From the NCBI RefSeq assembly GCF_011040385.1, contig NZ_JAAIKB010000006.1:186001-250000 (forward strand): a stretch of 64,000 nucleotides of DNA, written 5' to 3'. Shown one piece after another: positions 14,783 through 31,472 of the stretch (its first letter is position 1; every line of letters begins with the position of its first letter). This DNA is from Falsiroseomonas algicola. GTDB lineage: Bacteria > Pseudomonadota > Alphaproteobacteria > Acetobacterales > Acetobacteraceae. Made by a program: the position numbers and the translations under genes. Below the pieces are notes generated by a model. It was given only the letters and a program-made list of their open reading frames with translations, was not told the DNA's origin and ran no database searches.

Positions 14783-15793
14783 TCAACTGGCGCGGATTGC
14801 GGCCAAGAGGTCTTCCAGCAACTCGGGAAGGGCCAGGGGCGTGGCATCGCCGCCGCCGCGGCCGAAATGGCCGGCGGCCTCCGTGGTCGTCCTGCCGAGC
14901 CGCGCCGACAGCCGCACCAGCGCATCTTGGCACTGCTCCCGCGTCGGCAACGCGGTCAGGCGAAGGTCAACCGGCAGCAGGTCGTTGGCGCCGACCAGCG
15001 GCAGCCGCTCCGCCCCCACCTGGCGCTGCGCGACGATGCCATGGGCAGCGCGCTCCCTCTTCGCCACGACGAAGCTGCGATGCGTCAGCCCCGGCGCCAC
15101 CCAGCTGATGCGCCGCGTATAGACCCCCCCGAACCGCCCCAGCGCCTCCGCCACTACCCGCGCCATCTCGTTGTGCATGACGACATAGGCGCGCTTCTCG
15201 GCCGGCCCCCACTTCCACCGCGTGGCGCTCACGCGCGTGGCCGTATGGTCCTCCCGCCAGGGAGAGACGGCATTGCCCCGCTCCTCGAACAGGCCCGGAT
15301 CGTCATAGAGCACGGCGGGTGACGTCCCCCCGGGATAGGCCAGCATGTGCTCATAAGGCACCAGGCCCAGCGGCTCGCTGATCACGGCGCGATGGATGAC
15401 GATGCCATCGGGATGCAGCAGCGGCGCCAGGCTGAACAGCGCCTCCGGCTCCCCCTCCTCCCGCAGCCCCAGCAGCGTGGGATCGGCCGGCGCCATCGGC
15501 ACGAAGCCTGCCGCGATCAGCGCGGCATTGATGCGCTTGTGCTCGGTGGAGAGGATGTAGGGCTTCGTGCGCGTGCACGGCAGCAGCAGCAGCACGCGAT
15601 GCGGCACATCGGGCAGCACGGGATTGTAGTCCCGGCCGACGAAGTCGAACCATGCTTTGATGCGGGGATGCTGGAGGCTGTCCACATTGTCCTGCGGGCA
15701 GTACAGCGCCAGCGAGGGATCCAGGGTGAAAGGCGCGCGGAACTTCTGCGCGGATTCGCGCACGCGCGTGTCGCGGTCGTCGGTGGTGACCAT
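14783..15793 (-). CDS. DUF5591-like protein (archaeosine-synthase-related domain)
   Basis: 336 residues. The segment VLLLLPCTRTKPYILSTEHK (residues 67-86) resembles the LPCSxxKPY...S core of DUF5591. That domain is known from archaeal TgtA2/ArcS proteins acting in archaeosine tRNA modification and from scattered bacterial proteins. No PUA domain or TGT barrel is attached. The rest (PYEHMLAYPGGTSPAVLYDDPGLFEERGN, RISWVAPGLTHRSFVVAKRER) is unfamiliar. It starts 3 bp after the stop of the preceding minus-strand gene and so appears to be the last gene of the large catabolic operon. The function is unknown; the family call is from recall of the motif. Confidence 0.55.
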   Translation of the reverse strand: MVTTDDRDTRVRESAQKFRAPFTLDPSLALYCPQDNVDSLQHPRIKAWFDFVGRDYNPVLPDVPHRVLLLLPCTRTKPYILSTEHKRINAALIAAGFVPMAPADPTLLGLREEGEPEALFSLAPLLHPDGIVIHRAVISEPLGLVPYEHMLAYPGGTSPAVLYDDPGLFEERGNAVSPWREDHTATRVSATRWKWGPAEKRAYVVMHNEMARVVAEALGRFGGVYTRRISWVAPGLTHRSFVVAKRERAAHGIVAQRQVGAERLPLVGANDLLPVDLRLTALPTREQCQDALVRLSARLGRTTTEAAGHFGRGGGDATPLALPELLEDLLAAIRAS

Positions 15794-15796
15794 CGC

Positions 15797-16780
15797 TCAG
15801 GTCTCCAGCAGCGCAGCGGGGAACAGCTCTTCCGGTGCCAGGTCGCGCTTCAGCAGGCCCTCGTCGCGCATGTAGCGGATCAGCGTCGCGAAGACGTGGC
15901 GATTGGCCGCGAAGCCCGTGGACCAGAAATCCGCGCCCAGCACGCGCTCCGTCTCCTCGAGGTGCTGGACCAGGAAAGGCAGGCCGAAGGCGAGCGTGGC
16001 ACTGTCATGCAGCCGCAGCCGGGACTGGCGCTGCGATTCCGCGAAGGCATCGTAGAGCGCCCGCGGCAGCCAGGGATTGTCCTCGGCAATAGCCGTCTTC
16101 ACCGCCACCAGATGCATGGGCGGGAAGATGCGGGACCGCTGGAAGTAGTCGATCTCGGCGGCCATCGGATCGGCGAAGAGCCGCCCGACCTTGTCCGGCG
16201 CACTGAAGAAGCTGTCAGGCGCGCGGGCGGTGTAGATCGCGTCGATCTCGCCACTCTCCAGCATCTCGGACAGCGACTTGTCCGTCACATGCTCGATGGT
16301 GACACCGGGCGGATAGTCCTGCGGATGATCCTCGCCCGCGCGGGCCGCGTTCAGCCCGGCATTCACGTAGATCGGCGCGGCGACGGGAAGGTCGTAGAAC
16401 TCCGCGAAGATGCCGCGCAGCCACACCGCCGCCGCCATGTCCCACACCATGGCGCCGACGCGCCTGCCCGCCAGGTCGGCCGGCTTCGTCAGCCCCTTCG
16501 CCTTGTTCACATAGACGCAGGAGAAGCGGAAATGGCGGGAGGGGAAGACGGGGATGCCGACATAGTCCTGCCGGGGCCGATCGAAATGCCGCAGCCAGGT
16601 GGCGATGGGGAATTCGCAGCAATCGAATTGATGGGTCGTCATCTGCAAATTGAACAGCGGCTGCAGCGCCATGACGGTCGTCTCCGCCACGACGCCCGCG
16701 ATCGGCACGCGGCCTTCCGCCAGCGCGCGGGCGCGGTCGCAATCGGAAACGCCGATGGTCAGGCGAAGCGGCGAAGTCAT
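15797..16780 (-). CDS. 4,5-dihydroxyphthalate decarboxylase-family / binding-protein-like protein
   Basis: 327 residues with the type-II periplasmic-binding fold: LRLTIGVSDCDRARALAEGRV, FDCCEFPIATWLRHF, YVGIPVFPSRHFRFSCVYVN, then KPADLAGRRVGAMVWDMAAAVWLRGIFAEF. This is the pattern of the family annotated as 4,5-dihydroxyphthalate decarboxylase, many members of which are probably binding proteins. There is no signal peptide, which argues for a cytoplasmic enzyme or sensor rather than an importer component. Its ATG overlaps the preceding amidohydrolase stop by 4 nt. Confidence 0.78.
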   Translation of the reverse strand: MTSPLRLTIGVSDCDRARALAEGRVPIAGVVAETTVMALQPLFNLQMTTHQFDCCEFPIATWLRHFDRPRQDYVGIPVFPSRHFRFSCVYVNKAKGLTKPADLAGRRVGAMVWDMAAAVWLRGIFAEFYDLPVAAPIYVNAGLNAARAGEDHPQDYPPGVTIEHVTDKSLSEMLESGEIDAIYTARAPDSFFSAPDKVGRLFADPMAAEIDYFQRSRIFPPMHLVAVKTAIAEDNPWLPRALYDAFAESQRQSRLRLHDSATLAFGLPFLVQHLEETERVLGADFWSTGFAANRHVFATLIRYMRDEGLLKRDLAPEELFPAALLET

Positions 16781-18264
16781 GCGAGGCTGCTCTCCACGGG
16801 GATCTTGCGCGCGAAGGGCAGTGCGGCGCGGCCCTCCCGCTCGGCATAGGCGACGACATGCGGCTCCAGCCGCGCGGCCAGGGCGCGAGAGGGCGCGAGC
16901 CGCTCCATCAACTCCGCCAGCGCATCGCGCGCGCGGTCGCGCAGCGTCGCGGCGACGGGGGCGAGGCAGCGCCCCTCGACCACCACCTGCCGGCCGCCGA
17001 CGAAGACTTCCCTGACGCTGCCAGCGGTATTGCAGGTCACGGCCTGGTTCGCCGCGTCATGCAGCGGCACGAATGCGCGGTGGCCGAGGTCGAGCAGCGC
17101 GAGATCCGCCGGCGCGCCTTCCGCGATCCGCCCGCCCTCAATGCTGAGCACGGCGGCGCCGCCTTCCGTCGCCATGCGCAGCACATCCGCCGCCGCCAGC
17201 CATTCCTCGCGCGGCACGTCGCGGATGCGGGAGAGGTGCGAGGCCAGCCGCATCGCCTCCGCCATGTCGAGGCTGTCCGCGGAATTGCAGCCATCCGTGC
17301 CGAGCCCGACCGTGATGCCACGCGCGCGCATCGCGGCGACGGAAGCGACGCCGGCGCCGAGCCGCATATTGCTCGCCGGCATATGCGCCACCGTGGCACC
17401 ATGCGCCGCCAGCAGGTCCAGCTCCGCCGCTTCCAGCCACACCGCATGCGCCGCCGTGAAATGAGGGCCCAGCAGCCCGAGGCGCGCGATGTGATGCACC
17501 GGACCCATGCCCCAGAGCCTGCGCGCCACCAGCGCCTGCAGCTTCGATTCCGCGATATGCATGTGCAGACGCAGGCCTCGCGAGGCCGCGAGGTCCCGGC
17601 ACCCCGTCACGAAGTCATCCGTGCAGTGATGCGGGATGGTCGGCGCCAGGGCGAAGCTGATGCCAGAAGGTGGCGTGACGCTGGCGAAGGCGTCGCGCAG
17701 CGCGGCGAGGGTCTGCGCGGCCGGCGCCAGGCGGAAGGCGCTGGCCTGCGCGCGCAGATCGTCGGGCAGCGTATCGAGGAACCCGGGCAGCACCTCGAAC
17801 AGCGCGCGATCCGCCACCATCGGCGCGACCACGGCCCGCATGCCCGCTTCCGCATAGGCGGCAGCGACCGTGGCCAGGCCTTCCGCACTCGGGCCGGGGA
17901 ATTCGAAGAACAGGTCGTAGCAGGCGGTGCAGCCGGCCTCGAGCATCTCCACCGCGCCCAGCAGCGTGGAAATCCGGATGGTCTCCGCATCCCGCCGCCC
18001 GCCCATCCAGGCGCCATTGGTCAGCGAGGATTCCAGCATCCACCGATCCGCCACCCCTTTCATGAGGGTGGCGTGCCCGTGGGTATGCGCGTTCACCAGG
18101 CCCGGCAGCACCAGGCGATCGCTGGCATCGAAGCGGGGGACGTCCTTCGGCCCCTCGCCCGGCGCCAGCACCGCCGCGATGTGGCCATCCCGCAGCAGCA
18201 GGTCCCGCGGCGCCGCGCTGGCGCCGTCCCAGACCAGCCCGCCCGTGACCAGCAGCACCGTCAC
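16777..18264 (-). CDS. Trz/Atz-type amidohydrolase (cytosine/guanine deaminase-like)
   Basis: 495 residues. Metal-binding motifs of the amidohydrolase superfamily are in order: LVNAHTHGHATLMKG (HxH, about 58-60), HMHIAESK, FTAAHAVWL and GLGTDGCNSADSLDMAEAMRLASH (the catalytic Asp). The N-terminal and C-terminal segments form the usual small beta domain (LALLDLGHRAFVPLHDAANQAV, VREVFVGGRQVV). This subgroup deaminates or dechlorinates N-heterocycles such as triazines, cytosine or oxidised purines. It is coupled by 4-nt overlaps to genes on both sides. Confidence 0.88.
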   Translation of the reverse strand: MTVLLVTGGLVWDGASAAPRDLLLRDGHIAAVLAPGEGPKDVPRFDASDRLVLPGLVNAHTHGHATLMKGVADRWMLESSLTNGAWMGGRRDAETIRISTLLGAVEMLEAGCTACYDLFFEFPGPSAEGLATVAAAYAEAGMRAVVAPMVADRALFEVLPGFLDTLPDDLRAQASAFRLAPAAQTLAALRDAFASVTPPSGISFALAPTIPHHCTDDFVTGCRDLAASRGLRLHMHIAESKLQALVARRLWGMGPVHHIARLGLLGPHFTAAHAVWLEAAELDLLAAHGATVAHMPASNMRLGAGVASVAAMRARGITVGLGTDGCNSADSLDMAEAMRLASHLSRIRDVPREEWLAAADVLRMATEGGAAVLSIEGGRIAEGAPADLALLDLGHRAFVPLHDAANQAVTCNTAGSVREVFVGGRQVVVEGRCLAPVAATLRDRARDALAELMERLAPSRALAARLEPHVVAYAEREGRAALPFARKIPVESSLA

Positions 18265-19433
18265 GCCAGCGCGGGCGCCAGCGCTTCCGCCGCCGCCAGC
18301 AGCATCGCGTCCTGGTAGGGCGCGGCCACCAGCGACAGGCCGAAGGGAATGCCGTCCAGCGTGCCCGCCGGGACGTTCACCTGCGGCAGGCGGCAGAGGC
18401 TCGCGATGCAGGTCAGCGCCAGCGTGTTGTCGCGGAAGGCGAATTGCGCGGAGACCGGGGCATCGCGCAGCGGCGGCAGGTCATGCGCCGTCGGGATCAC
18501 CAGGATGCCGTCATGGCCGAGCAGCGCGCGGATATGCGCCGAGAGTGTCTCCCGCCGCACCCAGGCCGCCGCGATATCCGCCTGCGGCACGGTGGAGGCC
18601 AGCGCGATGCGGTCCCGCACCGCTGGGCTCAGCCGCCGCCCCGGCGCCGTCGCCCAGCTGCCATGAGTCGCCCAGAGTTCGCCGAGTTGCAGCGGCTTGA
18701 AGGTCTCCAGCCACCAGGTGTGGCCCCATTCGCCATAGGCGCGCACGGCCTGCATCGGCCCGAGCTTCGCCGCCGCATCGCGCATCACATCCTGCAGCGG
18801 CGGCACGGGAATGGCGAAGGCATCCTCCGCGAAGAGCAGCCGCGGCGTCGTGGCCGGCGCGTCGCCGAAGAACAGCGAGCCCACCTTCCGCAGCAGGCCC
18901 GCATCGCGCGCGAACCAGCCCACCGTGTCGATGCTCGGCGCCATCGGCATCAGCCCCGCGGTGGAGACGCGGCCATGGGAGGTGCGGATGCCGAAGACGC
19001 CGCAGAAGCTGGACGGCACGCGGACGGAACCGCCGGTATCCGTGCCGAAGGCGAAATCGCAGAAGCCACCGGCCACCGCGACGACGGAGCCGGAGGAGGA
19101 GCCGCCCGGCACGCGATCCGGCACCACCGGGTTGATCGGCGCGCCGTAATGCGGGTTCTCCCCGAACAGGCCGCAGGCGATCTCATCCGTATGCGTCTTG
19201 CCGATCATCGTCGCACCGGCGGCGAGCGCCGGCAGCAGCGCGCTGGCCGTGGTGGCAGAAGGCGGCGTCTGCTCCACGCGGTCGGGGTTGCCCCAGCCGC
19301 TGACGGTGCCCGCCACGTCGAACAGATCCTTCACCGCGAAGGTGAGGCCCGCGAGCTGCCCCTCCGCCGCGCCTTCCACCCGCACATCGCCATGCGCGAC
19401 GAAGGCGGAGGCCCTGATCTGCGCCGGCGTCAT
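18261..19433 (-). CDS. Amidase (amidase signature family)
   Basis: 390 residues from the ATG at 19433, which overlaps the stop of the HpaB-like gene (ATGA). The Ser-cisSer-Lys triad is visible: Lys35 in FAVKDLFDV, the Ser112-114 run in GGSSSGS, and nucleophile Ser136 in GTDTGGSVRVP. It is shorter than the ~460-residue norm and resembles the AtzF/allophanate-hydrolase and indoleacetamide-hydrolase-like short amidases. It hydrolyses an amide to acid plus ammonia in the cytoplasm. The context suggests it acts on a ring-opened intermediate. Confidence 0.9.
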   Translation of the reverse strand: MTPAQIRASAFVAHGDVRVEGAAEGQLAGLTFAVKDLFDVAGTVSGWGNPDRVEQTPPSATTASALLPALAAGATMIGKTHTDEIACGLFGENPHYGAPINPVVPDRVPGGSSSGSVVAVAGGFCDFAFGTDTGGSVRVPSSFCGVFGIRTSHGRVSTAGLMPMAPSIDTVGWFARDAGLLRKVGSLFFGDAPATTPRLLFAEDAFAIPVPPLQDVMRDAAAKLGPMQAVRAYGEWGHTWWLETFKPLQLGELWATHGSWATAPGRRLSPAVRDRIALASTVPQADIAAAWVRRETLSAHIRALLGHDGILVIPTAHDLPPLRDAPVSAQFAFRDNTLALTCIASLCRLPQVNVPAGTLDGIPFGLSLVAAPYQDAMLLAAAEALAPALA

Positions 19434-20890
19434 TCCGCCGCCGCCTTGGCATCCGGGCGGTCGAGCCCGTAGCTGTCCATGAAGCCCTGCACCATGGCCT
19501 TCGGTCCTGTCCAATCGTGGAAGCGGTAGGAATTGCCGCGGATGGCGAATTGCGGACCGGAGTAGAACATCTCGTATTGCAGGTGTCGCGACCCGAATTC
19601 GGACCCGATCGCGTCCCAGGCCAGCTTCATCAGCTTCACCCGTTCCTCGCTGCCCGCCACGGGCGAACGCTGGCTGGCCTGGATGATGCGCTCCACCTCC
19701 CCGCCATCAAAGTCGGCGGCGGAGGATGGCACCATGACGAGCCCGCCACCCGACAGGCCGCGGATCGCCTCGATGAATTCCGGATAGATGGTCTGCGCCA
19801 GCACCTGCGCCGAGACCAGCAGCCGCCGGTCCGGCACGAAGGTCCCATGAAAATCCTCGCCCTGCGCTTCCATGGCGACGACCATCGCCTCGATGCTGCT
19901 GGCCTTGGCGGCGAGCAGGCCGAGCGTCTCCCGCGTCTGGGGGAAGCCGAGGATGCCGTTCGTCTCCGCGATGCGATGCGCAAGACCCAGCAGGAAGCGC
20001 AGCTTGACGGAGAGCCGAACGATGCATTGGTAGTTCTGCATCACATGCGCCCGCGTCTCATGCCACTGGGCCTGCATCATCCGCAGGTCACGATGGACGA
20101 AGACGCGGTCCCAGGGGATCTTCACATCCTCGAAGAAGACGACGGCGTCATTCTCGTCGAAGCGGGCGGAGAGCGGGTAGTCGAAGACAGAACTCGCCGC
20201 GGCCTCATAGCTCCGGCGCGACAGAAGCTTGATGCCCCTGGTCGCCATGGGCATGACAGCGGTGAAGGCATAGGGCTCGTCGCCCGGCATCAGCGCCACG
20301 ATGCCGGACACCATCAGCTCATTCGCCATCACGCCGGCGGTCGCCAGCATCTTGGCGCCACGGATGGTGATGCCGCCCGCATCCTCGTCCACGATGCGCG
20401 CCACCAGGTCGCCGCCCGGCTGGTCCTTCGCTTGGCGGGACTTGTCGGCCTGCGGGTTGATGATGACGTAGCCGATCCAGTGGTCGGCGCGTCGCGCTTC
20501 CTCGAAATAGGCAGCGAGCGCCGCGCCGCCGCGCGCCTCATAGGCGTGGCGGCCGGCCATGAAGCCCACGAAGGTGGAGGCGACGTGGTCGGGGCTGCGG
20601 CCCATCATGCCGCAGCTGCGCGCCGCGATGCGCTCCATCGCCACGCGCCGCTTCACGAGCTCCGCGTGGTTGCGCGGCATCATCCAGGCGAAACCGCTGC
20701 GCGTGCCGTCGCCGAGGTCGAAGGTCATGCCATCGGGGTCCTCGGCCTGCAGGTCATAGAGAGAGGCGGCGGAGGCGACGGCGCCGGCGAAGGCAGCGTC
20801 CGTCGTCACATCCGCAACCCGACGCCCATCGATGAAGATGGTGCGCGCGTCGCGCAGGCTGCGCAGATGGGCGGCGCCGTCCTTCACCAT
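19430..20890 (-). CDS. 4-hydroxyphenylacetate 3-hydroxylase (HpaB)-family flavin monooxygenase
   Basis: 486 residues, right for the large FADH2-dependent component of two-component aromatic hydroxylases. Recognisable segments are FIDGRRVADVTTDAAFAG at the N-terminus, HWIGYVIINPQADKSRQ, IPWDRVFVHRD, and the C-terminal FGSRHLQYEMFYSGPQF, followed by RGNSYRFHDW. HpaB-type enzymes hydroxylate phenols, pyrrole-2-carboxylate or other small aromatics and need a flavin reductase, which is absent from this operon. It overlaps the FAD-monooxygenase gene by 7 bp and the amidase by 4 bp. Confidence 0.9.
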   Translation of the reverse strand: MVKDGAAHLRSLRDARTIFIDGRRVADVTTDAAFAGAVASAASLYDLQAEDPDGMTFDLGDGTRSGFAWMMPRNHAELVKRRVAMERIAARSCGMMGRSPDHVASTFVGFMAGRHAYEARGGAALAAYFEEARRADHWIGYVIINPQADKSRQAKDQPGGDLVARIVDEDAGGITIRGAKMLATAGVMANELMVSGIVALMPGDEPYAFTAVMPMATRGIKLLSRRSYEAAASSVFDYPLSARFDENDAVVFFEDVKIPWDRVFVHRDLRMMQAQWHETRAHVMQNYQCIVRLSVKLRFLLGLAHRIAETNGILGFPQTRETLGLLAAKASSIEAMVVAMEAQGEDFHGTFVPDRRLLVSAQVLAQTIYPEFIEAIRGLSGGGLVMVPSSAADFDGGEVERIIQASQRSPVAGSEERVKLMKLAWDAIGSEFGSRHLQYEMFYSGPQFAIRGNSYRFHDWTGPKAMVQGFMDSYGLDRPDAKAAAE

Positions 20891-22347
20891 GGGCGTGTCC
20901 CTTCCGATGCCAGGGTCAGGTCAACCAACTCGCGTTCCTCATAGGCAACCAGCGCGGCGTGGTCCGCCTCCGCCTGGTCCAGGAACAGGTCGCGCGTGAT
21001 GCCGCGCGCGATGCGATCGACGGTCGGCCGTAGCGTGGAGATGCCGCCCGAGGAGGCCGTGCTGGCCATGGCGGCGAAGGAGGAGGAACGCAGCCGCGCG
21101 AGCCAGGGCGCGCTGCCCGCGACGCGTTCGGTGAAGGCGAAATCGCCGGTGAGGTAGGGGAAGGCGCCGAGCGCGGCATCCTCCTCCCCCGCCGGCGGCG
21201 CGAAGCGATCCCGCCACCGCGCGAGATGCGGCGCGGCCGCGGCCAGTTCCGGCCGCAGCGCGGGTTCCACCACCAGCCCCGTGCCGACGATGAGGAAATC
21301 CGCCGGGACGGCACGGTGCGGCGTCTCCACCACGATCGCATCGCCTTCCATCCGCAGCGCGCGAATCGGCGCGCCGAGGTGCAGGTGAAAACCCGCATGC
21401 AGCGCACATCGGGAAAAGGTTTCCTGCGGCGGCGGCTGGTTCATCGCGAAGATGGTCCGCATGAAGCGCCACTTCAGCGCATCCGGCAGGTCCGCGAAGT
21501 GGTTCAGGAAGCCTGCGAATTCCATCCAGCGATAGGGATTCACCGCCGGCAGTTGCGGCCGGCGCGCCAGCAGATCGACGCGCGCCGCGCCATGTTCCAG
21601 CGCCATTGCCGCATTGTCGAAGGCCGAGGCCCCCGCGCCCAGCACCGCCACGCGCTTCCCCGCGAGCCGCGCGAAGTCGATCGCCTCCGCCGTATGGGCG
21701 TAGCGGCCCGCCGGCAGCGCCGCCGCAACCATCGCCGGCACCTGCCAGGCCCCGGCGCCATCCACCCCTGTCGCCAGCACCACGTGCCGCGCCAGCCACC
21801 GCGCCCGCGCGCCATCGTCGCGCTCCGCCGTGACGGCAAGCAAATCATCCGCCTCCGGCGCCACCGCATCGACGCGCCAGCCCGCCTCCACCGGCAGCGC
21901 CAGCATGCCCTGCAGCCAGTCGAGATAGGCCTGCCAGACGTCGCGCGGGATTTTCGTGAGAGCCGCCCAGGCGGCCTCGCCATACCGCGCCTCGAACCAG
22001 GCGCGGACGGAGAGCGAGGGCATGCCGAGTTCCGGCCCCGTCACATGCTTCGGCGTCCGCAGCGTGTGCATGCGGGCGAAGCGCAGCCAGATGCCGGCGG
22101 GGGCGCCGGCCTCCAGCACCTCGGTATTCGTGACGCGCGCGCGCCGCAGCGCGAAGGACAGCGCGAGCCCGCATTGCCCACCACCAACCACGACCACATC
22201 CCGCACGCCATCGCCGCGCGGCCGCACCCAGTCCCGCGCGGGATAGGCCAGCGTCTGCAGCTCCCACGCCACGCGATCCGCCAGCGCGGCGAGTCGCGCC
22301 TCGGCATCCGGCAGCGGCATCAGGGGGTGAAGGGGCAGCGCATCCAT
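20884..22347 (-). CDS. FAD/NAD(P)-dependent monooxygenase-like protein, paralog 2
   Basis: 487 residues from the ATG at 22347. Two Rossmann motifs are seen: VVVGGGQCGLALSFAL (FAD) and VAVLGAGASAFDNAA (NADPH). Between them lies the family-specific stretch FARMHTLRTPKHVTGPELG. The protein matches the one at 28356-29798 nearly end to end, including the N-terminal helix before the first Rossmann fold (TLAYPARDWVRP versus LTAYPAVPWVAP). The flavin-containing-monooxygenase fold is clear, the reaction is not; N- or Baeyer-Villiger-type oxygenation is possible. Confidence 0.86.
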   Translation of the reverse strand: MDALPLHPLMPLPDAEARLAALADRVAWELQTLAYPARDWVRPRGDGVRDVVVVGGGQCGLALSFALRRARVTNTEVLEAGAPAGIWLRFARMHTLRTPKHVTGPELGMPSLSVRAWFEARYGEAAWAALTKIPRDVWQAYLDWLQGMLALPVEAGWRVDAVAPEADDLLAVTAERDDGARARWLARHVVLATGVDGAGAWQVPAMVAAALPAGRYAHTAEAIDFARLAGKRVAVLGAGASAFDNAAMALEHGAARVDLLARRPQLPAVNPYRWMEFAGFLNHFADLPDALKWRFMRTIFAMNQPPPQETFSRCALHAGFHLHLGAPIRALRMEGDAIVVETPHRAVPADFLIVGTGLVVEPALRPELAAAAPHLARWRDRFAPPAGEEDAALGAFPYLTGDFAFTERVAGSAPWLARLRSSSFAAMASTASSGGISTLRPTVDRIARGITRDLFLDQAEADHAALVAYEERELVDLTLASEGTRPW

Positions 22348-22488
22348 GGGTGGCGGATCAGGTCCTGGCGACGGTGGCACGGCCGCGCATCCCCTGCGGG
22401 ATGCCGCCACGCGATGTCGCCCAGGCCCGTTTCTCCGGCTCACCAGGGCGACGGATGTCTAGCATGGCGGCCTGCGGGCGCGAAGACA

Positions 22489-23262
22489 TCACGAGGCCTG
22501 GCCGAACCACTTCTGGTCCAGCCCCGGCAGGAAGCCATCCGCCTGCATCGCGGCCAGGTGCCGGTTGATCTCCGCCATCAGCGCCGTATCGGCGTGCCGC
22601 GTGTTGATGCCGACGTCGCGCGCATCCCACACAGGCGAGACGCCGAGCCGCACGCGGGCATTGCGTGCGATGTTCCAGCGCAGCACGGGCTGCGTGTTCA
22701 CCACCGCCTCCACCCGCCCCACCACCAGGTCCTGCAGCGCCAGCGGGAATTCGTTGTAGACGCGGATCTCCTTCACGCTGTTGGCGTGGTTCTGCCGCAC
22801 GAACTGCTCGCCCGAGGTGCCGACCTGCACGCCGACGATGCGCCCCGCCAGGTCTTCCGGCCGGTCGATCGCGAGCCCCGGGCGATAGCCCGCGGCGATG
22901 CCGGTCTTGTAGTAGGGGGTGGAGAAGGCGATGCGCTCCGCGCGCTCCGCGGTCCAGGCCATCGCCGTGATCAGGCAGTCCACGCGGCCGGAGGTGAGGC
23001 CCGCGATCAGCCCCGCGAAGGCGATCACCTGCCACTGGATGCGCAGCCCCATGCGCTTGCTGAGTTCCTCGCCGAGATCGACGTCATAGCCCGTGAGGCG
23101 CCCATTCTCCATGAACTCGAAGGGCGGGAAGGCGCCGCCATTGCCGACCACCAGCACGCCGGCGGCGCGCGCCTTGGCGAGCGTGTCACCCTCCTGCGCG
23201 AGCGCGGGCGTCGCGAGCGTCGTCGCCAGCAGCGCGCGGCGCGTGATGCGGATGCGGTCCAT
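22489..23262 (-). CDS. Polar amino-acid-type ABC transporter substrate-binding protein
   Basis: 257 residues from the ATG at 23262, preferred because a GGGGGA ribosome site precedes it. An ATG six codons earlier (23280) would overlap the ATPase stop by ATGA. The N-terminus RRALLATTLATPALA is a twin-arginine-like signal peptide. The mature protein is a type-II binding protein: GVLVVGNGGAFPPFEFMENGRLTGYDVDLGEEL, then AWTAERAERIAFSTPYYKTG. It binds a small polar ligand in the periplasm for the permease at 25288 and the ATPase at 23277. Confidence 0.9.
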   Translation of the reverse strand: MDRIRITRRALLATTLATPALAQEGDTLAKARAAGVLVVGNGGAFPPFEFMENGRLTGYDVDLGEELSKRMGLRIQWQVIAFAGLIAGLTSGRVDCLITAMAWTAERAERIAFSTPYYKTGIAAGYRPGLAIDRPEDLAGRIVGVQVGTSGEQFVRQNHANSVKEIRVYNEFPLALQDLVVGRVEAVVNTQPVLRWNIARNARVRLGVSPVWDARDVGINTRHADTALMAEINRHLAAMQADGFLPGLDQKWFGQAS

Positions 23263-23276
23263 CGTCCCAGTCCCCC

Positions 23277-24047
23277 TCATGCCTCGATCGATTCAGGCCG
23301 CAGCACGCGGCCCAGGAATTCCCGCGTCCGCGCTTCCCGCGGTCGCCCCAGCACTTCGGCAGGTGGCCCCTGTTCCACGACCAGCCCGCCATCCATGAAG
23401 ATGACGCGGTCCGCGGCTTCCCGCGCGAAGCCCATCTCATGCGTGACGACGAGCATGGTCATGCCCTCCGCCGCCAGGCCGCGCATCACCGCCAGCACTT
23501 CGCCGACCAGTTCGGGGTCGAGGGCGGAGGTCACCTCGTCGAACAGCATCACCTCCGGCTGCATGGCCAGCGCGCGGGCGATGGCGACGCGCTGCTGCTG
23601 CCCGCCGGAGAGGTCCGCCGGATAGGCACCCGCCTTGTGTGCCAGCCCGACCCGCGCCAGCAGCGCCCGCGCCTCCGCCTCCACCACGGCGCGCGGCCGC
23701 TTCAGCACCTGCACCGGCGCCTCCATGACATTGGCCAGCGCCGTCATGTGCGGGAACAGGTTGAATTGCTGGAAGACGATGCCGATGCGGCGCCGCGCCA
23801 GCGTCATCTGGCGTTCCGGGATGCGCGCGCCGCCGCTGCCCCAGCCGATATGCTGGCCGGCGACGATCACCTCCCCGCTCTCGAAGGGCTCCAGCCCGTT
23901 CAGGCATTGCAGCAGCGTCGATTTCCCGCTGCCGGAGGGGCCGATGACGCAGACCGTCTCGCCCTTCGCCACCGTCAGGTCCACGCCGCGCAGCACCGGC
24001 GTCGCGCCATAGGATTTGTGCAGGTTGCGGACGGCAATGACGCTCAT
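23277..24047 (-). CDS. Polar amino-acid-type ABC transporter ATP-binding protein
   Basis: 256 residues from the ATG at 24047. Walker A is GPSGSGKST, the Q-loop [11 protein letters not shown], the signature [15 protein letters not shown], Walker [12 protein letters not shown] and the H-loop VTHEMGFA. The length and the [17 protein letters not shown] segment are those of GlnQ/HisP-type ATPases. It is flanked by 4-nt overlaps with the amidohydrolase upstream and near-contact with the binding protein downstream. Confidence 0.94.
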
Positions 24048-25303
24048 GGCAGCGCCGCCAAAGCCGGCGGTACCAACGCGCCATCGCGCATCAGGAAGTC
24101 GCCTTCCCGCAGCACATGCCGCAGGTCGCGCGGCCGCGCCGCCAGCAGCAGCCGCGTCACGATCTCGTCGGGCTTGGCACCGGCGAAGGCGGCGGCGCGG
24201 AGGTCGAAGGCAATCACATCCGCCCGCGCGCCCGCCACCAGCCTGTGCCCGCCCGTCGCCATCGACAGCGTCTGTTCGGGCGTCGGCCATTCCGCATCGG
24301 GGCGACCGGCGCGCGGCAGCAGCATGGCGAATTTCGCGGCCTCCAGCATGTCCTGCGTATCGTTGCTGCCGGGGCCGTCGGAGCCCACGCGCAGCCGCAC
24401 GCCGCGCGCCAGCCCGCGCGCCACGGGCGCGATCCCGCTGCCGAGGCGAAGGTTCGCCAGCGGGTTGTGCACCATGGTCGTGCCCTGCGCCGCCATGCGG
24501 TCCAGCTCCGCATCCCCGAGATGGACGCAATGCGCGTATTCCACATGGGCGCCCGCCAGGCCGAGGCCTTCCAGCCAGGCCACCGGATCATCGCCCCCCG
24601 CACGGGCGCGGCAATCCACCGCATCCTTCGCGGTCTCGCAGAGATGGAGATGCACGAAGGCGCCATGCCGCTCCGCCAGCCGCGCGACCCCGCGTAGCAG
24701 ATCATCGCTGCATCGCTGCGGGGCGGAGGGGCCGAGCCCCACCGTCGCCCCCGGCGGTGGATCGCGCAGCAGCGCCTCCGCGACTGCCAATGCTTCCGCC
24801 GTGCTCGGCGGCGTGAAGCTGGCCGACGGCGAGGGCAGGTCGCGAAGCATCATGGCGACGCGCGCGCGGATGCCGCCCTCCGCCCAGGCGCTGGCCGCGG
24901 CGGCCACGCTCTTCACGCTCGGCGGGATCTGGCGGAAATGGTCGGTGACCTGCACGGCGCCGCCGCGGATCGCCTCCGCGCAGCTGATCAGGATCGCCTG
25001 GCGGATGCGCGCAGCCGGCAGCGCATCCTGGCCGTCCGCGTATTCCACCGCGAGCCAGTCATCCAGCCGCGCCATCGGCGCGCGGCCCCGCGCCAGCGCC
25101 TCCGGCGAATGGGTATGGGCGTTGACGAAGGCGGGCAGCAGCAGGAGGTGCGCGGCCTCGACGGTCGCCGCACCGTCAGCCGGTCCTTCCGCCACCACGC
25201 CATCGCGCAGCAGCAGATCCACGCCCGCCACCGGCGCCCAGTCATCGCCACCGCGCAGCAGCGTAGCGCCCTTGAACAGCAGAGCGCTCACGCCACCCTC
25301 CAT
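24044..25303 (-). CDS. Trz/Atz-type amidohydrolase, second in the operon
   Basis: 419 residues. Amidohydrolase motifs: [15 protein letters not shown] (HxH), [17 protein letters not shown] and [24 protein letters not shown] (catalytic Asp). It is shorter than its partner at 16777 and only distantly similar. Placement inside the ABC transporter genes suggests it acts on the imported compound or an early product. It overlaps the permease by 16 bp and the ATPase by 4 bp. Confidence 0.87.
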
Positions 25304-25941
25304 CGGGATTCCAGCCGCGCCACCAGCCAGACCAGCGGCAGGGTCATCATCAGGTACATCAGCGCGACGCCGGCGAAGGGGCTGAAGGTATTGGCCTGCC
25401 AGGTCATGATGTCCGTGCCCGCGCGCAGCAGGTCCGGAATCGCGATGACGCTCACTAGCGCCGTGTTCTTCAAGAGCGTGATCGCCTCATTCCCGATCGG
25501 CGGCAGCACGCGGCGCAGCGCCTGGGGCAGCACGATCCGCCGCATCGCCAGCGCCCATCCCATGCCGAGCGACCGCGCCGCGCGCATCTGCCCGCGATCG
25601 ATGGACTGGATCCCCGCCCGCACGATCTCCGTCACATAGGCGCCATTGGTCAGCGACAGCGCCAGGATCGCGACCGTCTTCGCCTCCAGCAGCAGGCCGA
25701 GCGACGGCAGGCCGTAGTAGAAGAACAGCATGGTCACCAGCAGCGGCACGCCCCGCAGCAGGGTCACGCAGGCCAGCGCAAAGGCGTTCAGGGCCACGAT
25801 GCCGGAGACGCGCGCGAGCCCGCCCATCAGCCCCAGCACGAGGCCCCCGCAGATCGAGACGAAGGCCAGCTCCGCCGTCGTCGCCGCGCCGCGCGCCAAG
25901 GCGGGCAGGCTCTCGACGAAGAGGCTCCATTCGAAATCCAT
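25288..25941 (-). CDS. Polar amino-acid-type ABC transporter permease
   Basis: 217 residues, HisM/GlnP family. The N-terminal GAATTAELAFVSICGGLVLG, the VTLLRGVPLLVTMLFFYYGLP element and the EAA loop ARSLGMGWALAMRRIVLPQALR (coupling helix) are characteristic. Five hydrophobic segments are seen. Only one permease is present, so the channel is probably a homodimer. Confidence 0.93.
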   Translation of the reverse strand: MDFEWSLFVESLPALARGAATTAELAFVSICGGLVLGLMGGLARVSGIVALNAFALACVTLLRGVPLLVTMLFFYYGLPSLGLLLEAKTVAILALSLTNGAYVTEIVRAGIQSIDRGQMRAARSLGMGWALAMRRIVLPQALRRVLPPIGNEAITLLKNTALVSVIAIPDLLRAGTDIMTWQANTFSPFAGVALMYLMMTLPLVWLVARLESRWRVA

Positions 25942-25944
25942 GCC

Positions 25945-26817
25945 CTACAGCACCGTTGCCGCATGGCGCGCGATGTCGCCGGGCCGGCAGAGCCAGATAT
26001 CATCCCGGGCCGCGGCAATATGGGCCAAGACGCGGCGGAGGTGCTTCAGCCGGAAGGCATGCCCGACGAGGAAGGGATGCAGAGACAGGTTGAAGGTCAG
26101 CGGCCATTTCCGCGAGAGCCGCAATTGCTCCTCGAACTGGTCGATCAGCGCATCCGCCCAGACGGAGGGTGGCCACTTGGCCGCATGCAGCACGGGAATG
26201 TCGTTGGTCGGCTTCGAATAGGGGACCGTGACCAGCGATCCACCGCCCCGCGTCGCCAGCCGCGTCGGCTGGTCGTCATGCGTCCAGTCCATGACGTAGT
26301 CGAAGCCCGCCTCCGCCAGCAGATCCGGCGTGACATGCGTCTCCGCCACCCAGGGGCCCATCCAGCCGCGCGGGGCCGCGCCCTCCTCGACGGCGATGCG
26401 CGCGCGGCATGTCGCGATCATCGCGCGCTCCGTCGCCTCATCCATGTCGGATTGCCGCTCCGCATTGGTGCGGCCATGGCCCACCACCTCGTCGCCCCGT
26501 GCGCGGAAGGCTTCGGCGACGGGCGGGCAGAGGTCGTAGATCGCCGTGTTCATCAGCGCCGCCGCCGGCAGCGCGAACTCATCCAGCGCGTCGAGCAGGT
26601 TCCAGACACCGACGCGGTTGCCCCAGTCGCGGAAGCCGTAATTCTGCACATCGGGCTCGGGCAGCGGATTGACCAGCGGAATGCCCATCCCCTCCGCGAA
26701 GGGAAACGCCTCCAGATTGACGGCGATGAAGACCGCGAGCCGCCTGCCGCCCGGCCAATCCCAGGCCGGGCGCCGCGCGATCGCGGAGTAGGGATAGCGC
26801 CCGTGGTCGCGCATCAC
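25945..26817 (-). CDS. Polysaccharide deacetylase family protein (PuuE/allantoinase-like)
   Basis: 290 residues of the NodB-fold type. The motif VFIAVNLEAFPFAEG stands where the catalytic Asp-Asp pair normally lies (the family's DxE), VGHGRTNAERQSDMDEATER is the H-box region, and FNLSLHPFLVGHAFR the C-terminal His. This pattern is that of the cytoplasmic PuuE group, whose founding members are metal-independent allantoinases, not of cell-wall deacetylases. With a ureidoglycolate lyase two genes away, a ureide or cyclic-amide substrate is likely (inference). Confidence 0.84.
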   Translation of the reverse strand: MMRDHGRYPYSAIARRPAWDWPGGRRLAVFIAVNLEAFPFAEGMGIPLVNPLPEPDVQNYGFRDWGNRVGVWNLLDALDEFALPAAALMNTAIYDLCPPVAEAFRARGDEVVGHGRTNAERQSDMDEATERAMIATCRARIAVEEGAAPRGWMGPWVAETHVTPDLLAEAGFDYVMDWTHDDQPTRLATRGGGSLVTVPYSKPTNDIPVLHAAKWPPSVWADALIDQFEEQLRLSRKWPLTFNLSLHPFLVGHAFRLKHLRRVLAHIAAARDDIWLCRPGDIARHAATVL

Positions 26818-27842
26818 GCGCGCATGGCCGGCAGCATCCGCTCCGCCGCCGGCGGCAGGAAGTCGGTCAGCATGAAGGACGATGCCGCGGGCGGGTTGGG
26901 CACGGCGAAGCTCTCCGCCATGGCGGCCACCATCGCCGTCGCGCGCGCGCCATCGACATGGCCGACGCCGTGCTGCGCGACCGTCGGCGTCAGCACCGCC
27001 TCCCGCATGATGAAGCGCATCCGCTCCGTCTCCAGCGGCACGTCGGCCAGCGGCTCCCGCGCCTGCACGGCGGCGATGGCGGCAGCGGGGTCGTTCAGCG
27101 CGTCGCGCAGCCCGGCGATGGTGGCGCGCACGAAGCCCCTCACCATCGCGGGCTCCCGCTGCGCCAGCTCCGCCGGCAGCAGCAGCGCATTGCCGTAGAT
27201 GTCGACGCCATGCGCGTTGAAGCCGAACATGCGGATATCGGCCTCCCGCGCGCCCAGCGCCCGCAGGTTGAAGAAGGCGCCGGAGACGAAGGCGGTGATG
27301 GCATCAGCCTCTCCCCGCATCAGCATCGGCTCGCGGATCGGCGGCGCGACGGTGATCCAGGTGACGGAATCCGCGGGGATGCCATTCGCACGCGCGAAGG
27401 CCGGGAACAGCACGCGGCCGCTGTCGCCCGCCGGCGCCGCGATACGCTTGCCCCGCAGGTCGGACGGCTTCTCGATCCCCCGCCCCGCCAGCGTGATCAC
27501 GCCGGCCAGAGTGCGGTCGAAATACTGGAAGGCGTTGACGATGGCGCGGCCGGGATTCTCGGCATTGTGCTTCACCACCGCGCCCGGATCGCCGAAGCCG
27601 ATATCGGCCACGCCTGCCGCCACCTTGGTGACCACATCGCCCGACCCGAAGCCGCGCTGGATGGCGACGTTCAGCCCCTCCCGCGCGAAATGGCCGCGCT
27701 CGGCCGCCAGGAACCAGGCGGCGTGGTAGCCCTGCGGCGTCCAGTCCAGCATCAGTCGGATGGCACGCGGCTGCGCGATCGCGGGCGCGGCCACCAGGCC
27801 GGCACCGATCCCCAGCAAGGCACGACGGGTCAGGCGGGTCAT
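26814..27842 (-). CDS. NMT1/THI5-like ABC transporter substrate-binding protein
   Basis: 342 residues from the ATG at 27842. It has a twin-arginine-like signal (TRRALLGIGAGLVAAPAIA), then IRLMLDWTPQGYHAAWFLAAERGHFAREGLNV, the classic NMT1/SsuA-like start, and GFGSGDVVTKVAAGVADIGFGDPG. Relatives bind pyrimidine precursors, sulfonates or taurine. No permease or ATPase of the matching class is in the operon, so it either uses a transporter elsewhere or serves another purpose. 4-nt overlap with the deacetylase gene. Confidence 0.9.
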   Translation of the reverse strand: MTRLTRRALLGIGAGLVAAPAIAQPRAIRLMLDWTPQGYHAAWFLAAERGHFAREGLNVAIQRGFGSGDVVTKVAAGVADIGFGDPGAVVKHNAENPGRAIVNAFQYFDRTLAGVITLAGRGIEKPSDLRGKRIAAPAGDSGRVLFPAFARANGIPADSVTWITVAPPIREPMLMRGEADAITAFVSGAFFNLRALGAREADIRMFGFNAHGVDIYGNALLLPAELAQREPAMVRGFVRATIAGLRDALNDPAAAIAAVQAREPLADVPLETERMRFIMREAVLTPTVAQHGVGHVDGARATAMVAAMAESFAVPNPPAASSFMLTDFLPPAAERMLPAMRA

Positions 27843-27855
27843 GCAGGGCGCTCCC

Positions 27856-28359
27856 TCAGGGCGTGATCGCGAAGGCGATGCCGAATTCGGTGTCGAGGCG
27901 GACGGTGTGGTGATCCACCTCATTCGTGTCGGCGAGTTCGAGATTGAGGAAATCCTGCGTCTCCGCCTCGAAGAACGGCCCCGCGTGCCAGGTGCCGCGA
28001 TGGAGCGCGAGCGCCTTGTCGCCGGGGATGCGGAAGATGCGGATCGCCGCCGGGTCGGGCTTCGCATCGGGCAGGTCCGCATCGATCGGCGGCGCCAGCC
28101 CGATGAACCACTCGCCGCCCATCGTCGCCGCCAGGCACTGCGTCACGCGGGTGTGGCGCGTGATGCCGCGCACCAGCAGCGGGCGCTGCCGCAGCCGCAT
28201 GATGTAGAGCCGCGGCGTGCCGCGCCCGAGTTCCAGCCTGGCATCGGCATCGCCGAAGGGCGTGCCGTCCTCGCCGGCCTCGATCAGCGTGCCGAAGGGC
28301 GCGATGGCCTCCGGCGTCGCCATCTCCGGCACGACGGCGGTGATTCGGACGTCGCTCAT
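27856..28359 (-). CDS. Ureidoglycolate lyase family protein
   Basis: 167 residues, normal for AllA-type ureidoglycolate lyase (cupin fold). It splits ureidoglycolate into glyoxylate and urea. Supporting segments: PFGTLIEAGEDGTPFGDADARLELGRG at the start, TRHTRVTQCLAATMGGEWFIGLAPP, IRIFRIPGDKALALHRGTWHAGPFF (metal-binding His region) and FLNLELADTNEVDHHTV at the end. It implies that the pathway ends in a ureidoglycolate-like compound. ATGA overlap with the monooxygenase-like gene upstream. Confidence 0.9.
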   Translation of the reverse strand: MSDVRITAVVPEMATPEAIAPFGTLIEAGEDGTPFGDADARLELGRGTPRLYIMRLRQRPLLVRGITRHTRVTQCLAATMGGEWFIGLAPPIDADLPDAKPDPAAIRIFRIPGDKALALHRGTWHAGPFFEAETQDFLNLELADTNEVDHHTVRLDTEFGIAFAITP

Positions 28360-29798
28360 GCGGCTTCGGTCTCCGGCAGGACGAAGGGGGACAGTTCGGC
28401 GTGCTCGCCGCCCAGGAACCAGGCCCAGTCGCTTTCCTGCTGGTCCAGGAAGAGCCGGCGCTTCACGCCCTCCACCAGGCGCGGCGCCACGTATTTCATC
28501 GCGCTGATGGAGGCCGCGACGGGGCCCAGGCTGAGCGAGGCGTTGTTGGTGATGGTGAAGACGCGGCCGAGCCAGGGTGCCGCGCCCGGCATGCGTTCGG
28601 TGAAGCCGCCGAAGCGGTCGAGGTAGGGCTGGCGCGCCAGCCGCGCATCCGCCTGTTCCGGCGGCGGCGTGAAGCGGTCCCTCCACAGCGCGGCATGCGG
28701 CAGCAGGGCCGCGTATTCGGGTTTCAGCGCCATGTCGCTCAGGAAGCCGGTCGCGATGATCAGCCGATCATGGACGAGGCGCTTGCCGCCCCCCTCCACG
28801 ATGATCTCGCTGCCTGTCCAGCGCACCTGGTCCCAGGGCATGCCCAGGCGCAGCCGGAAGCCGGGCTGTGCCATCGCGGCATCGAAGGTGGGCTGCGGCG
28901 GCGGCTGGCCGATCTGCCGCAGTCGTGTCGCATAGGCCCATTTCGCGGCATCCGGCAGGTCGACGTAATGCGCGAGGTGCCCCGCGCTTTCCATCCAGCG
29001 CCGCGGATTGTCGCGCGGCAGATCGGGCCGCCGGACGCAGACTTCGGCGCGCGCCGCACCGGCCTGCAGCGCCGCGATCGCGACATCGAAGGCCGTCGCC
29101 CCCGCGCCCAGCACGCCGACCCTTTCCCCCGCGAAGGCGCCGAGGTCGAGGATGTCATTCGCATGCACCACGCGGCCGGCCGGCACGGCGCGGGCGATGG
29201 CATCGGGAATGGCGTAGCCGCCCGCGCCGCCGGTGCCCGTCGCCATCACCAGGCTGCGGGCATGGCGCAGGATCGGGCCTTCCGGCGTGTCGAAGAGCAG
29301 CGCGATCATCGTGCCCTCGGCGGCGGGCTGCATCTCCCGCAGCCGCCAGCCATTCAGCACCGGCAGGTCCAGCACGCGGCGGAACCAGGCGAGGTAGGCG
29401 GCCCAGGCGGTGCGGGGGATGCGATACATCGCCTCCCACGCCGCCTCGCCATGCTGCGCTTCCCACCAGGCGCGGAAGGTCAGGGAGGGCAGGCCGCATT
29501 CGGGGCCGGCCAGGTCCTTCGGCGTGCGCAGCATCGTCATGCGCGCGAAGCTGAGCCAGGGGCCTTCCAGGCCATCCCGCGCCGCGTCGAAGACGGCGAT
29601 GCGCGTCACGCGCTCCCGCTTCAGCAGCCCGGCCAGCGCCAGGCCGTATTGCCCGCCGCCGATGATGGCGCAGTCCAGCGCCTCCGCCCCATCGGGCGCC
29701 GTCAGCGGCGCCACCCAGGGAACGGCCGGATAGGCAGTCAGCGCGAGCTCGCGCGCCACCAGGCGCTCCAGCGCGGGCAGGTCTTGGGCACAGGTCAT
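28356..29798 (-). CDS. FAD/NAD(P)-dependent monooxygenase-like protein, paralog 1 (first gene of operon)
   Basis: 480 residues. FAD fold CAIIGGGQYGLALAGLL near 42, family stretch FARMTMLRTPKDLAGPECG near 87, and a second nucleotide fold VGVLGAGATAFDVAIAAL. It is similar over its full length to the product of 20884-22347. Two members in one operon suggest two related oxygenation steps or a heteromer. It is the first gene of the minus-strand series, and the 366 bp upstream hold a dyad that may be an operator. Confidence 0.86.
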   Translation of the reverse strand: MTCAQDLPALERLVARELALTAYPAVPWVAPLTAPDGAEALDCAIIGGGQYGLALAGLLKRERVTRIAVFDAARDGLEGPWLSFARMTMLRTPKDLAGPECGLPSLTFRAWWEAQHGEAAWEAMYRIPRTAWAAYLAWFRRVLDLPVLNGWRLREMQPAAEGTMIALLFDTPEGPILRHARSLVMATGTGGAGGYAIPDAIARAVPAGRVVHANDILDLGAFAGERVGVLGAGATAFDVAIAALQAGAARAEVCVRRPDLPRDNPRRWMESAGHLAHYVDLPDAAKWAYATRLRQIGQPPPQPTFDAAMAQPGFRLRLGMPWDQVRWTGSEIIVEGGGKRLVHDRLIIATGFLSDMALKPEYAALLPHAALWRDRFTPPPEQADARLARQPYLDRFGGFTERMPGAAPWLGRVFTITNNASLSLGPVAASISAMKYVAPRLVEGVKRRLFLDQQESDWAWFLGGEHAELSPFVLPETEAA

Positions 29799-30164: not shown

Positions 30165-30704
30165 ATGGATGCCGTGACCGACCTTTCCCCGCTGCTCTCC
30201 GCCGTCGCGCGGGGGGACAGGCATGCGCTGCGCGCGATCTATGAACGGCAATCCGTTCGCCTCTTCGGCGTGGCCAATGCCATCCTGCGGGACCGCGACG
30301 CGGCGGCCGATGCGCTGCAGGACGCCTTCCTGAAGATCGCTCGCCGTGCGGACCAGTTCGACCCCGCCCGGGGGTCGGCGGAATCCTGGCTCGCCGCCAT
30401 CGTGCGCTACGCGGCGCTCGACATGGCGCGCGCCCGGGGGCGGGAGATCCCGACGGATGATCCAGGCCTCGGCGACACGCCGGTGGAGGCCGATGCGCTG
30501 GATCGCATCGCCGCCCAATCCGAAGGCGTGCGCCTGCGGGAATGCCTCTCCTCGCTGGAGGAGCGGAACCGCCGCGGCATCGTCCTCGCCTTTGTGCATG
30601 GCCTGTCCCACGCCCAGATCGCCGCCCAGCTCGAACTGCCGCTCGGCACGGTGAAGGCCTGGATCCGGCGCGGCCTCCTGCGGCTGCGGGAGTGCCTGGC
30701 ATGA
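30165..30704 (+). CDS. ECF-type RNA polymerase sigma factor
   Basis: 179 residues. Region 2 (AIYERQSVRLFGVANAILRDRDAAADALQDAFLKIARRADQFDP) and region 4 (ECLSSLEERNRRGIVLAFVHGLSHAQIAAQLELPLGTVKAWIRRGLLRLR) are complete, with no extra C-terminal domain. The short Shine-Dalgarno-poor leader suggests weak or leaderless initiation. The next gene overlaps it by ATGA and encodes an anti-sigma of the RskA type, so activity is set by that partner. Confidence 0.94.
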   Translation: MDAVTDLSPLLSAVARGDRHALRAIYERQSVRLFGVANAILRDRDAAADALQDAFLKIARRADQFDPARGSAESWLAAIVRYAALDMARARGREIPTDDPGLGDTPVEADALDRIAAQSEGVRLRECLSSLEERNRRGIVLAFVHGLSHAQIAAQLELPLGTVKAWIRRGLLRLRECLA

Positions 30705-31396: not shown

Positions 31397-31455
31397 TCGG
31401 TTTTCTTCCGTAGTCGCTGCGTCCGGTAGCGCGCCGGCTCCGTAACGCCGTCAGT

Positions 31456-31472
31456 GGGGCCCGCCGGGCCCC
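31456..31472 (+). terminator. Hairpin between anti-sigma and DUF4394 genes
   Basis: GGGGCCC and GGGCCCC enclose a 3-base loop. There is no T-run, so it may be a processing or partial termination site that separates the two expression levels. Confidence 0.4.

Follow-up and report, generated by a model that had tools for sequence, protein, structure and literature searches.

The 64,000-nucleotide window analysed here (G000:C66:186001-250000, from Falsiroseomonas algicola; guanine-plus-cytosine content 72%) carries a run of 14 open genes, g1 to g14, all on the minus strand between positions 14783 and 29798. This agrees with an earlier note, made from the sequence alone, which described 14 minus-strand genes over 15 kb and took them for an operon degrading an N-rich heterocycle or ureide. 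The mostly overlapping junctions it reported are also found, with nine of 13 overlapping by 1-16 nt and the other four being gaps of 13, 3, 141, and 3 nt. The sole large intergenic gap (141 nt) coincides with the border between two gene blocks, module A (g1-g8) and module B (g9-g14). The products (Table 1) include two FAD/NAD(P) monooxygenase-like proteins, FMO-A and FMO-B, with matches to PF13454, PF13434, and PF13738, an HpaB-type hydroxylase with HpaB_N and HpaB domains, two Trz/Atz amidohydrolases carrying Amidohydro_1, and a short amidase above its model cut-off, all of which the note had recognised. ATP-binding cassette (ABC) transport components accompany them, together with g14, which had been left unnamed and is here assigned as a DUF5591 protein resembling the archaeosine synthase ArcS.

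Table 1. Genes of the operon and the gap between its two modules, with window positions and principal matches
Feature	Position	Strand	Match or observation
g1, FMO-A, FAD/NAD(P) monooxygenase-like, 480 aa	28356..29798	-	PF13454/PF13434 above cut-off; own clade 100/100, 12 rows
g2, AllA-like protein, 167 aa	27856..28359	-	PF04115 34.5 vs 23 bits
g3, NMT1/SsuA-like binding protein, twin-arginine (Tat)-like leader (by eye)	26814..27842	-	PF09084 126 bits
g4, PuuE-like protein, 289 aa	25945..26814	-	TIGR03212 E 7.5e-25; PDB 3cl6 E 2.6e-17
g5, amino-acid type ABC permease	25288..25941	-	PF00528, TIGR01726 above cut-off
g6, Trz/Atz amidohydrolase	24044..25303	-	PF01979 E 3.5e-37
g7, ABC ATPase	23277..24047	-	PF00005
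g8, SBP_bac_3 binding protein, last module A gene	22489..23280	-	PF00497 E 3.8e-34
Gap g8/g9, 141 nt, border of modules A and B	22348..22488	-	Junction count; modules apart in relatives
g9, FMO-B, 487 aa, first gene of module B	20884..22347	-	PF13738/PF13434 above cut-off; own clade 100/99, 31 rows
g10, HpaB-type flavin monooxygenase, oxygenase component	19430..20890	-	PF11794 + PF03241
g11, short amidase	18261..19433	-	NF006169 433.6 vs cut-off 391 bits
g12, Trz/Atz amidohydrolase, near 8-oxoguanine deaminase / N-ethylammeline chlorohydrolase models	16777..18264	-	PF01979 E 1.6e-51
g13, 4,5-dihydroxyphthalate decarboxylase homologue	15797..16780	-	PDB 9jp7 E 8.7e-55, residues 4-326 of 327
g14, DUF5591/ArcS-core protein, 336 aa, motif PCTRTKPYILSTEH	14783..15793	-	PF17884 30.7 vs 26 bits

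Module layout was determined by searching 40 loci of relatives with the 14 genes (tblastn) and by calling genes with a codon model derived from those same 14, so that starts and small genes in relatives are approximate. The A-B order of the window is kept in six relatives, namely G013 (13 of 14 genes), G006 (14), G004 (13), G008 (12), G003 (9), and G001 (13). A search for the same gene set in other genomes, as the note had proposed, finds it with 9-14 of the 14 genes, and this preservation of gene order indicates that the operon is not a chance assembly. In G007 the order is inverse, B-A, and in G010, G014, and G011 the modules lie on different contigs. Both modules are flanked by other genes in G010 and G011 and are thus truly apart there; in G014, where module B is adjoined by g4 and g6, the contigs span just 17 and 20 kb. 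The binding-protein gene g3 adjoins module B genes in several relatives, and module B of G007, G010, and G014 holds an additional PuuE-like gene that shares 27-29% identity with g4 and is absent from the window's 14. In G019, the stretch fetched (L065) has g1 and g4 as its only operon genes, and the best HpaB match in that genome is 28%. A Parvibaculum locus (L099) carries, beside module B genes, an AllA-like gene (49%) and an FMO that the tree sets adjacent to the module A clade (support 90/86). The predicted operon is composed of two transferable modules, and the earlier picture of one operon encoding one linear pathway is too simple, as the two occur apart.

Within module A, g2 exceeds the Pfam cut-off for its family but misses those of the NCBIfam AllA equivalog models (best 32.7 against 230 bits), and g4 is similar to the curated PuuE model TIGR03212 but scores 87.6 bits where 424.6 are required. 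The ureidoglycolate lyase and PuuE-like deacetylase of the note hold at the level of similarity. Its polar amino-acid-type ABC importer is borne out in the permease, the ATPase, and the SBP_bac_3 protein, with a single permease gene (g5). One of its two extra binding-protein-like products, g3, is indeed an NMT1-type protein; the other, by count g13, is instead a decarboxylase homologue.

In module B, g10 carries both Pfam domains of its family but misses both NCBIfam HpaB equivalog cut-offs, scoring 277.6 bits where 480.2 are needed and 255.8 where 885.2 are. Residues R113, Y117, and H155 of E. coli HpaB are what we take to be its substrate-hydroxyl residues. Across the g10 orthologues the R113 position is kept, Y117 is replaced by H in 28 of 31 rows, and H155 by Y in 29 of 31, the remainder being gaps, so that the predicted pocket is altered in a conserved manner. 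The matches listed for g10 contain 15 solved HpaB-type relatives, 13 named as phenol hydroxylases and two as isomerases or dehydratases of other acids. The amidohydrolase g12 reaches 230.9 bits against NF006055, under its cut-off of 532. For g13, Pfam and NCBIfam scans give no model match and no signal peptide is visible by eye. Its homology to 4,5-dihydroxyphthalate decarboxylase extends over the whole protein and makes it a candidate decarboxylase. Its assignment as a periplasmic binding protein was ruled out by the full-length homology to 9jp7.

The DUF5591 match in g14 covers 30 residues, PCTRTKPYILSTEH included, and the domain scan matches nothing beyond it. This core carries PCX3KPYX2SX2H, reportedly recognised as the ArcS core motif by Phillips and colleagues in 2010. 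An alignment of the window protein with relatives from 25 of 48 loci (26 rows) shows PF17884, both ArcS models, and motif I matched by all 26 proteins and motif II by 22. Against the two ArcS equivalog models, g14 scores 29.6 and 25.6 bits, far short of the cut-offs of 440 and 600. The profile built from this alignment finds AF0587 (PDB 2q07) with an E value of 0.0013; a further, collinear segment stays below threshold. The AlphaFold model of g14, with a mean predicted local distance difference test (pLDDT) of 92.8, returns 2q07 as the first Foldseek match (probability 1.00, E 0.014, template modelling (TM) score 0.39), followed by a second match of probability 0.12. Motif and predicted fold together argue, with modest strength, that g14 is a stand-alone ArcS-core protein. 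A literature search on DUF5591 found no paper, and a plasmid search for annotated relatives returned one DUF5591 record, with FMO and g13 relatives generically labelled among the matches listed.

The spread of module B was followed through DUF5591 loci, collected from the genome_contigs collection by a peptide-pattern scan with the g14 alignment that gave 132 stretches, 50 of them confirmed and 48 distinct, a non-exhaustive set. Partner frequencies, at identity thresholds set in the script, are conditional on g14, by which the loci were chosen, and a partner's absence can reflect a short contig. Under these terms, the 48 loci hold g13 in 33, FMO-B and the amidase in 31 each, HpaB in 30, PuuE2 in 22, and TrzA in 21; all six partners are present in 15 loci, three or more in 32, and none in 15. 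Module B occurs in Acetobacteraceae, Kaistia, Bosea, Bradyrhizobium, Martelella, Ciceribacter, Mesorhizobium, Pseudooceanicola, and Parvibaculum. In the reverse test on 119 relatives, HpaB is found at 75-100% identity in 11 genomes and g13 at 80-100% in the same 11, in every case on the contig that carries module B, while the next-best homologues reach 37% for g13 and 56% for HpaB. The module is rare, as g14 appears in four of 385 genomes of the class, one of these a weak match (E 3e-4).

Kaistia-type loci extend the module with a flavin reductase, c10 (present in 11 of the 48, including 10 module B loci), and a further Trz protein, c8 (15 of 48), whose single scanned member, at 603 bits, passes the 532-bit cut-off for 8-oxoguanine deaminase. 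Other additions comprise arylmalonate-decarboxylase/EutA-like, polysaccharide deacetylase, CobW, AraC regulator, class III aminotransferase, histone-deacetylase-type, and aldehyde dehydrogenase genes; none of these extra partners is present in the window operon. Between the polysaccharide deacetylase c16 and CobW c17, five loci (L097, L098, L100, L103, and L104) encode a small Cys-containing protein, c46/c62, of 89-106 aa in the copies shown; the one member scanned is without a Pfam match. On a Rhizobium plasmid, an adenosine deaminase (above cut-off), a cytidine-deaminase-type gene, and a biuret-amidohydrolase-like gene lie no more than about 16 kb from g14. G367 (L078/L079) has urate-pathway genes near its DUF5591 gene, the urate genes of L079, like those of L139, being named by eye.

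The 15 partnerless loci belong to Actinomycetota, Chloroflexi, other bacteria, and five alphaproteobacterial loci, two of the 15 lying on 6-kb contigs. Near g14 in several of the 15 are isochorismatase-type (8 loci), amidohydrolase c19 (8), DUF1989 (7), DUF1185 (5), and hydantoinase-like (4) genes. In L115, L119-L122, and L124-L129, which are of Actinomycetota, Chloroflexi, other bacteria, and two alphaproteobacterial loci, genes of these isochorismatase, DUF1185, DUF1989, amidohydrolase, and hydantoinase-like kinds often stand by DUF5591 in place of module B. At L138 (8902-12327), an HpaB homologue (52%) lies beside relatives of the DUF1185 (58%) and amidohydrolase (66%) genes of DUF5591 loci; the fetched stretch shows no DUF5591 gene.

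The FMO family connects the operon with urate. For the locus survey 26 loci were taken, of which L040 had no gene calls and 25 had a called FMO, two further window-genome paralogues and one congener paralogue among them. In other genera, 12 of the 25 loci (L037, L039, L042, L044-L048, L066, L068, L072, and L073) hold a member of the family together with HIU hydrolase. These 12 genomes, 11 of the window's family and one (G104) of another, were chosen for the HIU hydrolase cluster d1 in the FMO locus, and PF00576 confirmed the 12 places. All 12 have neither PuuD nor uricase, in a comparison covering those two enzymes; the OHCU-type decarboxylase d5 and the allantoate amidohydrolase d2 were named by eye. 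The FMO tree, built on 68 distinct proteins of 80 passing score and length (15 rows without a group), resolves the module A clade at 100/100 and the module B clade at 100/99, and places the HIU-linked FMOs on one side at 82/83, this label being given to 10 rows and not to L044 and L068, which also hold HIU hydrolase. The absence of PuuD and uricase from all 12 HIU-linked genomes makes the FMO a candidate urate hydroxylase, and the HIU-linked family probably fills that role there. The urate hydroxylase HpyO is described in PMC4562309. We take g1 and g9 for relatives of a urate hydroxylase, possibly of HpyO, that were recruited for another ring.

In the window's genus, PuuD is present in all 11 genomes tested (those with module genes, of 15). 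On contig C11 of the window genome, PuuD adjoins HIU hydrolase, with an allantoate-amidohydrolase-like gene in the vicinity (by eye); PF00576 genes lie on C11 and C22. Family scans of the 14 proteins match neither HIU hydrolase (PF00576) nor OHCU decarboxylase. The ordinary urate route was rejected for the operon, since the genome has PuuD and HIU hydrolase elsewhere. The note had likewise excluded the uric acid route, correctly in this respect, but its statement that no urate oxidase or HpxO is present misleads, as both FMOs belong to a urate-linked family.

From gene content, homologies, module structure, and conservation, all directly observed, we infer a substrate, a reaction order, and each reaction as follows. 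The two modules may degrade a purine-like heterocycle, a fused or substituted pyrimidine, by a urate-like route with other enzymes, a reading for and against which we find the balance about even; this substrate class is preferred because of the FMO, deaminase, and PuuE/AllA homologies. Import would proceed through the ABC system of g5, g7, and g8, perhaps with g3. A nitrile, amidine, or amide side group could be converted to a carboxylate by g14 and the amidase g11, after which g10 would hydroxylate the ring next to the carboxylate and g13 would strip the latter non-oxidatively, in the manner of 4,5-dihydroxyphthalate decarboxylase. Ring amino groups would be removed by the Trz/Atz proteins g12 and g6, and a ring carbon hydroxylated by the urate-hydroxylase-like g9 and g1. 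A hydantoin-like ring would then be opened by PuuE-like proteins (g4, and the second one in relatives), leaving a ureido acid that AllA-like g2 may split into glyoxylate and urea or a relative of it. N-heterocycle catabolism, as the note had proposed, remains the best interpretation.

Several observations weigh against this purine-like route. None of the 15 solved HpaB-type relatives listed is by name an N-heterocycle enzyme, and none of the 14 genes encodes a flavin reductase. The g13 family is large, with five matches in the window genome, and to our knowledge a single function is known for it. Both g2 and g4 stay far under the AllA and PuuE equivalog cut-offs. The 15 of 48 DUF5591 loci without partners indicate that the role of g14 is not bound to module B alone, and the two modules may have separate substrates.

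A more specific version of the purine-like route, rather unlikely in our judgement, has module B degrade 7-deazaguanines (preQ0, preQ1, 7-carboxy-7-deazaguanine, or queuine, as bases, nucleosides, or nucleotides, from tRNA turnover). In this scheme g14 would act on the 7-cyano nitrile or an amidine and g11 on the amide to reach the 7-carboxylate, which the aminotransferase and aldehyde dehydrogenase of relatives would obtain from an aminomethyl group, although these two lie outside the window operon. HpaB would then hydroxylate pyrrole C8 and g13 decarboxylate, before deamination, C5 hydroxylation, and ring opening. The scheme gives every core gene a step and draws on g14 and on chemistry: a pyrrole carbon would be expected to suit a flavin monooxygenase over a molybdenum hydroxylase of xanthine-dehydrogenase type, and hydroxylation beside a carboxylate fits decarboxylation. 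It is consistent with the motif counts, the AF0587 profile and fold matches, the shortness of g14 (336 aa, no other domain matched), and the guanine-type deaminase c8 in 15 of 48 g14 loci, but the ArcS link consists mainly of a pair of short motifs and a fold match of modest score. PMC11298593 gives preQ0 nucleoside as a substrate of Thermococcus kodakarensis ArcS, used more quickly with a 5'-phosphate, yet the same paper reports inactivity on the free preQ0 base and calls the Km for the 5'-phosphate nucleoside very large; for phage ArcS homologues, a DpdC-like hydrolysis is suggested in PMC6884629. No queuosine transporter, nucleosidase, or deazaguanine gene was recognised in the loci, where no directed search was made. 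Rfam scans of 19 sources (the window and 18 of the 48 DUF5591 loci) matched one tRNA and no riboswitch, thus no preQ1 riboswitch. An ordinary oxidised or methylated purine, such as 8-oxoguanine or methylurates, handled by a variant urate route, is improbable to about the same degree. The scanned c8 member, the urate-linked FMO family, and the PuuE- and AllA-like genes point towards it, but c8 is outside the window operon, PuuD and two HIU hydrolases are encoded elsewhere in the genome, and HpaB, the decarboxylase homologue, and g14 are without a known place in that route.

Thiamin pyrimidine catabolism, in which an aminomethyl-type side chain is oxidised to a carboxylate and then decarboxylated, would account for the NMT1/THI5-like binding proteins g3 and c12 and for the aminotransferase and aldehyde dehydrogenase of relatives. 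It appears highly improbable, as NMT1 proteins have many ligands, the 19 sources contain no thiamin pyrophosphate riboswitch, and the urate-like FMOs, PuuE, AllA, and the ArcS-core protein are left unexplained. Breakdown of a pterin, folate fragment, or hydroxypyridine-type acid is very unlikely, family scans having recognised no pterin- or pyridine-specific gene in the module; in its favour, the L138 HpaB relative lies near a molybdenum-hydroxylase trio and an FAD monooxygenase (by eye), as in N-heteroaromatic routes, besides its DUF1185 and amidohydrolase neighbours. It is also conceivable, though unlikely, that two unrelated pathways are co-transcribed by chance in one genus. The separability of A and B agrees with this, as does G019 with its g1 and g4 but only a distant HpaB match; however, A and B are adjacent in two differing orders (L062 vs the window), and the Parvibaculum locus joins an FMO and an AllA-like gene of module A character to module B genes.

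Around the operon, dnaA (13171-14697) lies downstream in convergent orientation, with an enoyl-CoA hydratase gene (11397-12395), also convergent, beyond it. Divergently upstream, at 30165-32313, are genes for an extracytoplasmic function (ECF)-type sigma factor, an RskA-type anti-sigma factor, and a DUF4394 protein, the sigma gene being common to seven loci, window included; no regulator gene is found among the 14 operon genes. A radical SAM protein at 32463-33713 exceeds the cut-off of TIGR03916 ('putative DNA modification/repair'). The promoter scan gave 0 promoters against 0.6 in shuffles, and four terminators against 4.0.

The main value of the locus is a conserved, uncharacterised catabolic module of six to seven genes, spread across several Alphaproteobacteria groups and including a bacterial ArcS-core protein. 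The earlier observation is largely right and its interpretation partly so; the system still appears undescribed, as a full-text literature search found no paper on the gene set. An ArcS core family member within a metabolic operon suggests a testable small-molecule role for bacterial DUF5591 proteins. If the substrate were indeed a 7-deazaguanine, the module would provide a breakdown route for queuosine-type bases, for which none was found described; among the matches listed in the search, none concerned 7-deazaguanine catabolism by title or abstract start. The results also point to the FMO family as the candidate urate hydroxylase of genomes with HIU hydrolase but neither PuuD nor uricase.

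The Rut pyrimidine pathway is excluded, in accordance with the note, as family scans find no RutA or RutB family among the 14 proteins. With oxidative urate degradation (PuuD/HpxO/HpyO, HIU hydrolase, OHCU decarboxylase, PuuE, and AllA) the operon shares PuuE-like, AllA-like, and deaminase-type proteins and an FMO family found in HIU loci elsewhere, but it lacks HIU hydrolase and OHCU decarboxylase among its 14 products, PuuD being elsewhere in the genome, and adds HpaB, the dihydroxyphthalate decarboxylase homologue, an amidase, and the ArcS-core protein. A resemblance to the phthalate pathway lies in the full-length homology of g13 to its 4,5-dihydroxyphthalate decarboxylase, whereas the partners of g13 are of N-heterocycle type and no ring-hydroxylating phthalate dioxygenase is among the 14 proteins. 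Like 4-hydroxyphenylacetate 3-monooxygenase HpaB, g10 has both Pfam domains, and 10 of the 32 module B loci encode a flavin reductase, but g10 differs in its equivalog scores and in the H/Y pair at the E. coli Y117/H155 positions of its orthologues. Finally, unlike archaeosine synthase, g14 is a bacterial, stand-alone protein of 336 aa in a catabolic operon, with no TGT-like or PUA domain matched, yet it shares with ArcS motif I, the second motif in most relatives, and the fold match to AF0587.

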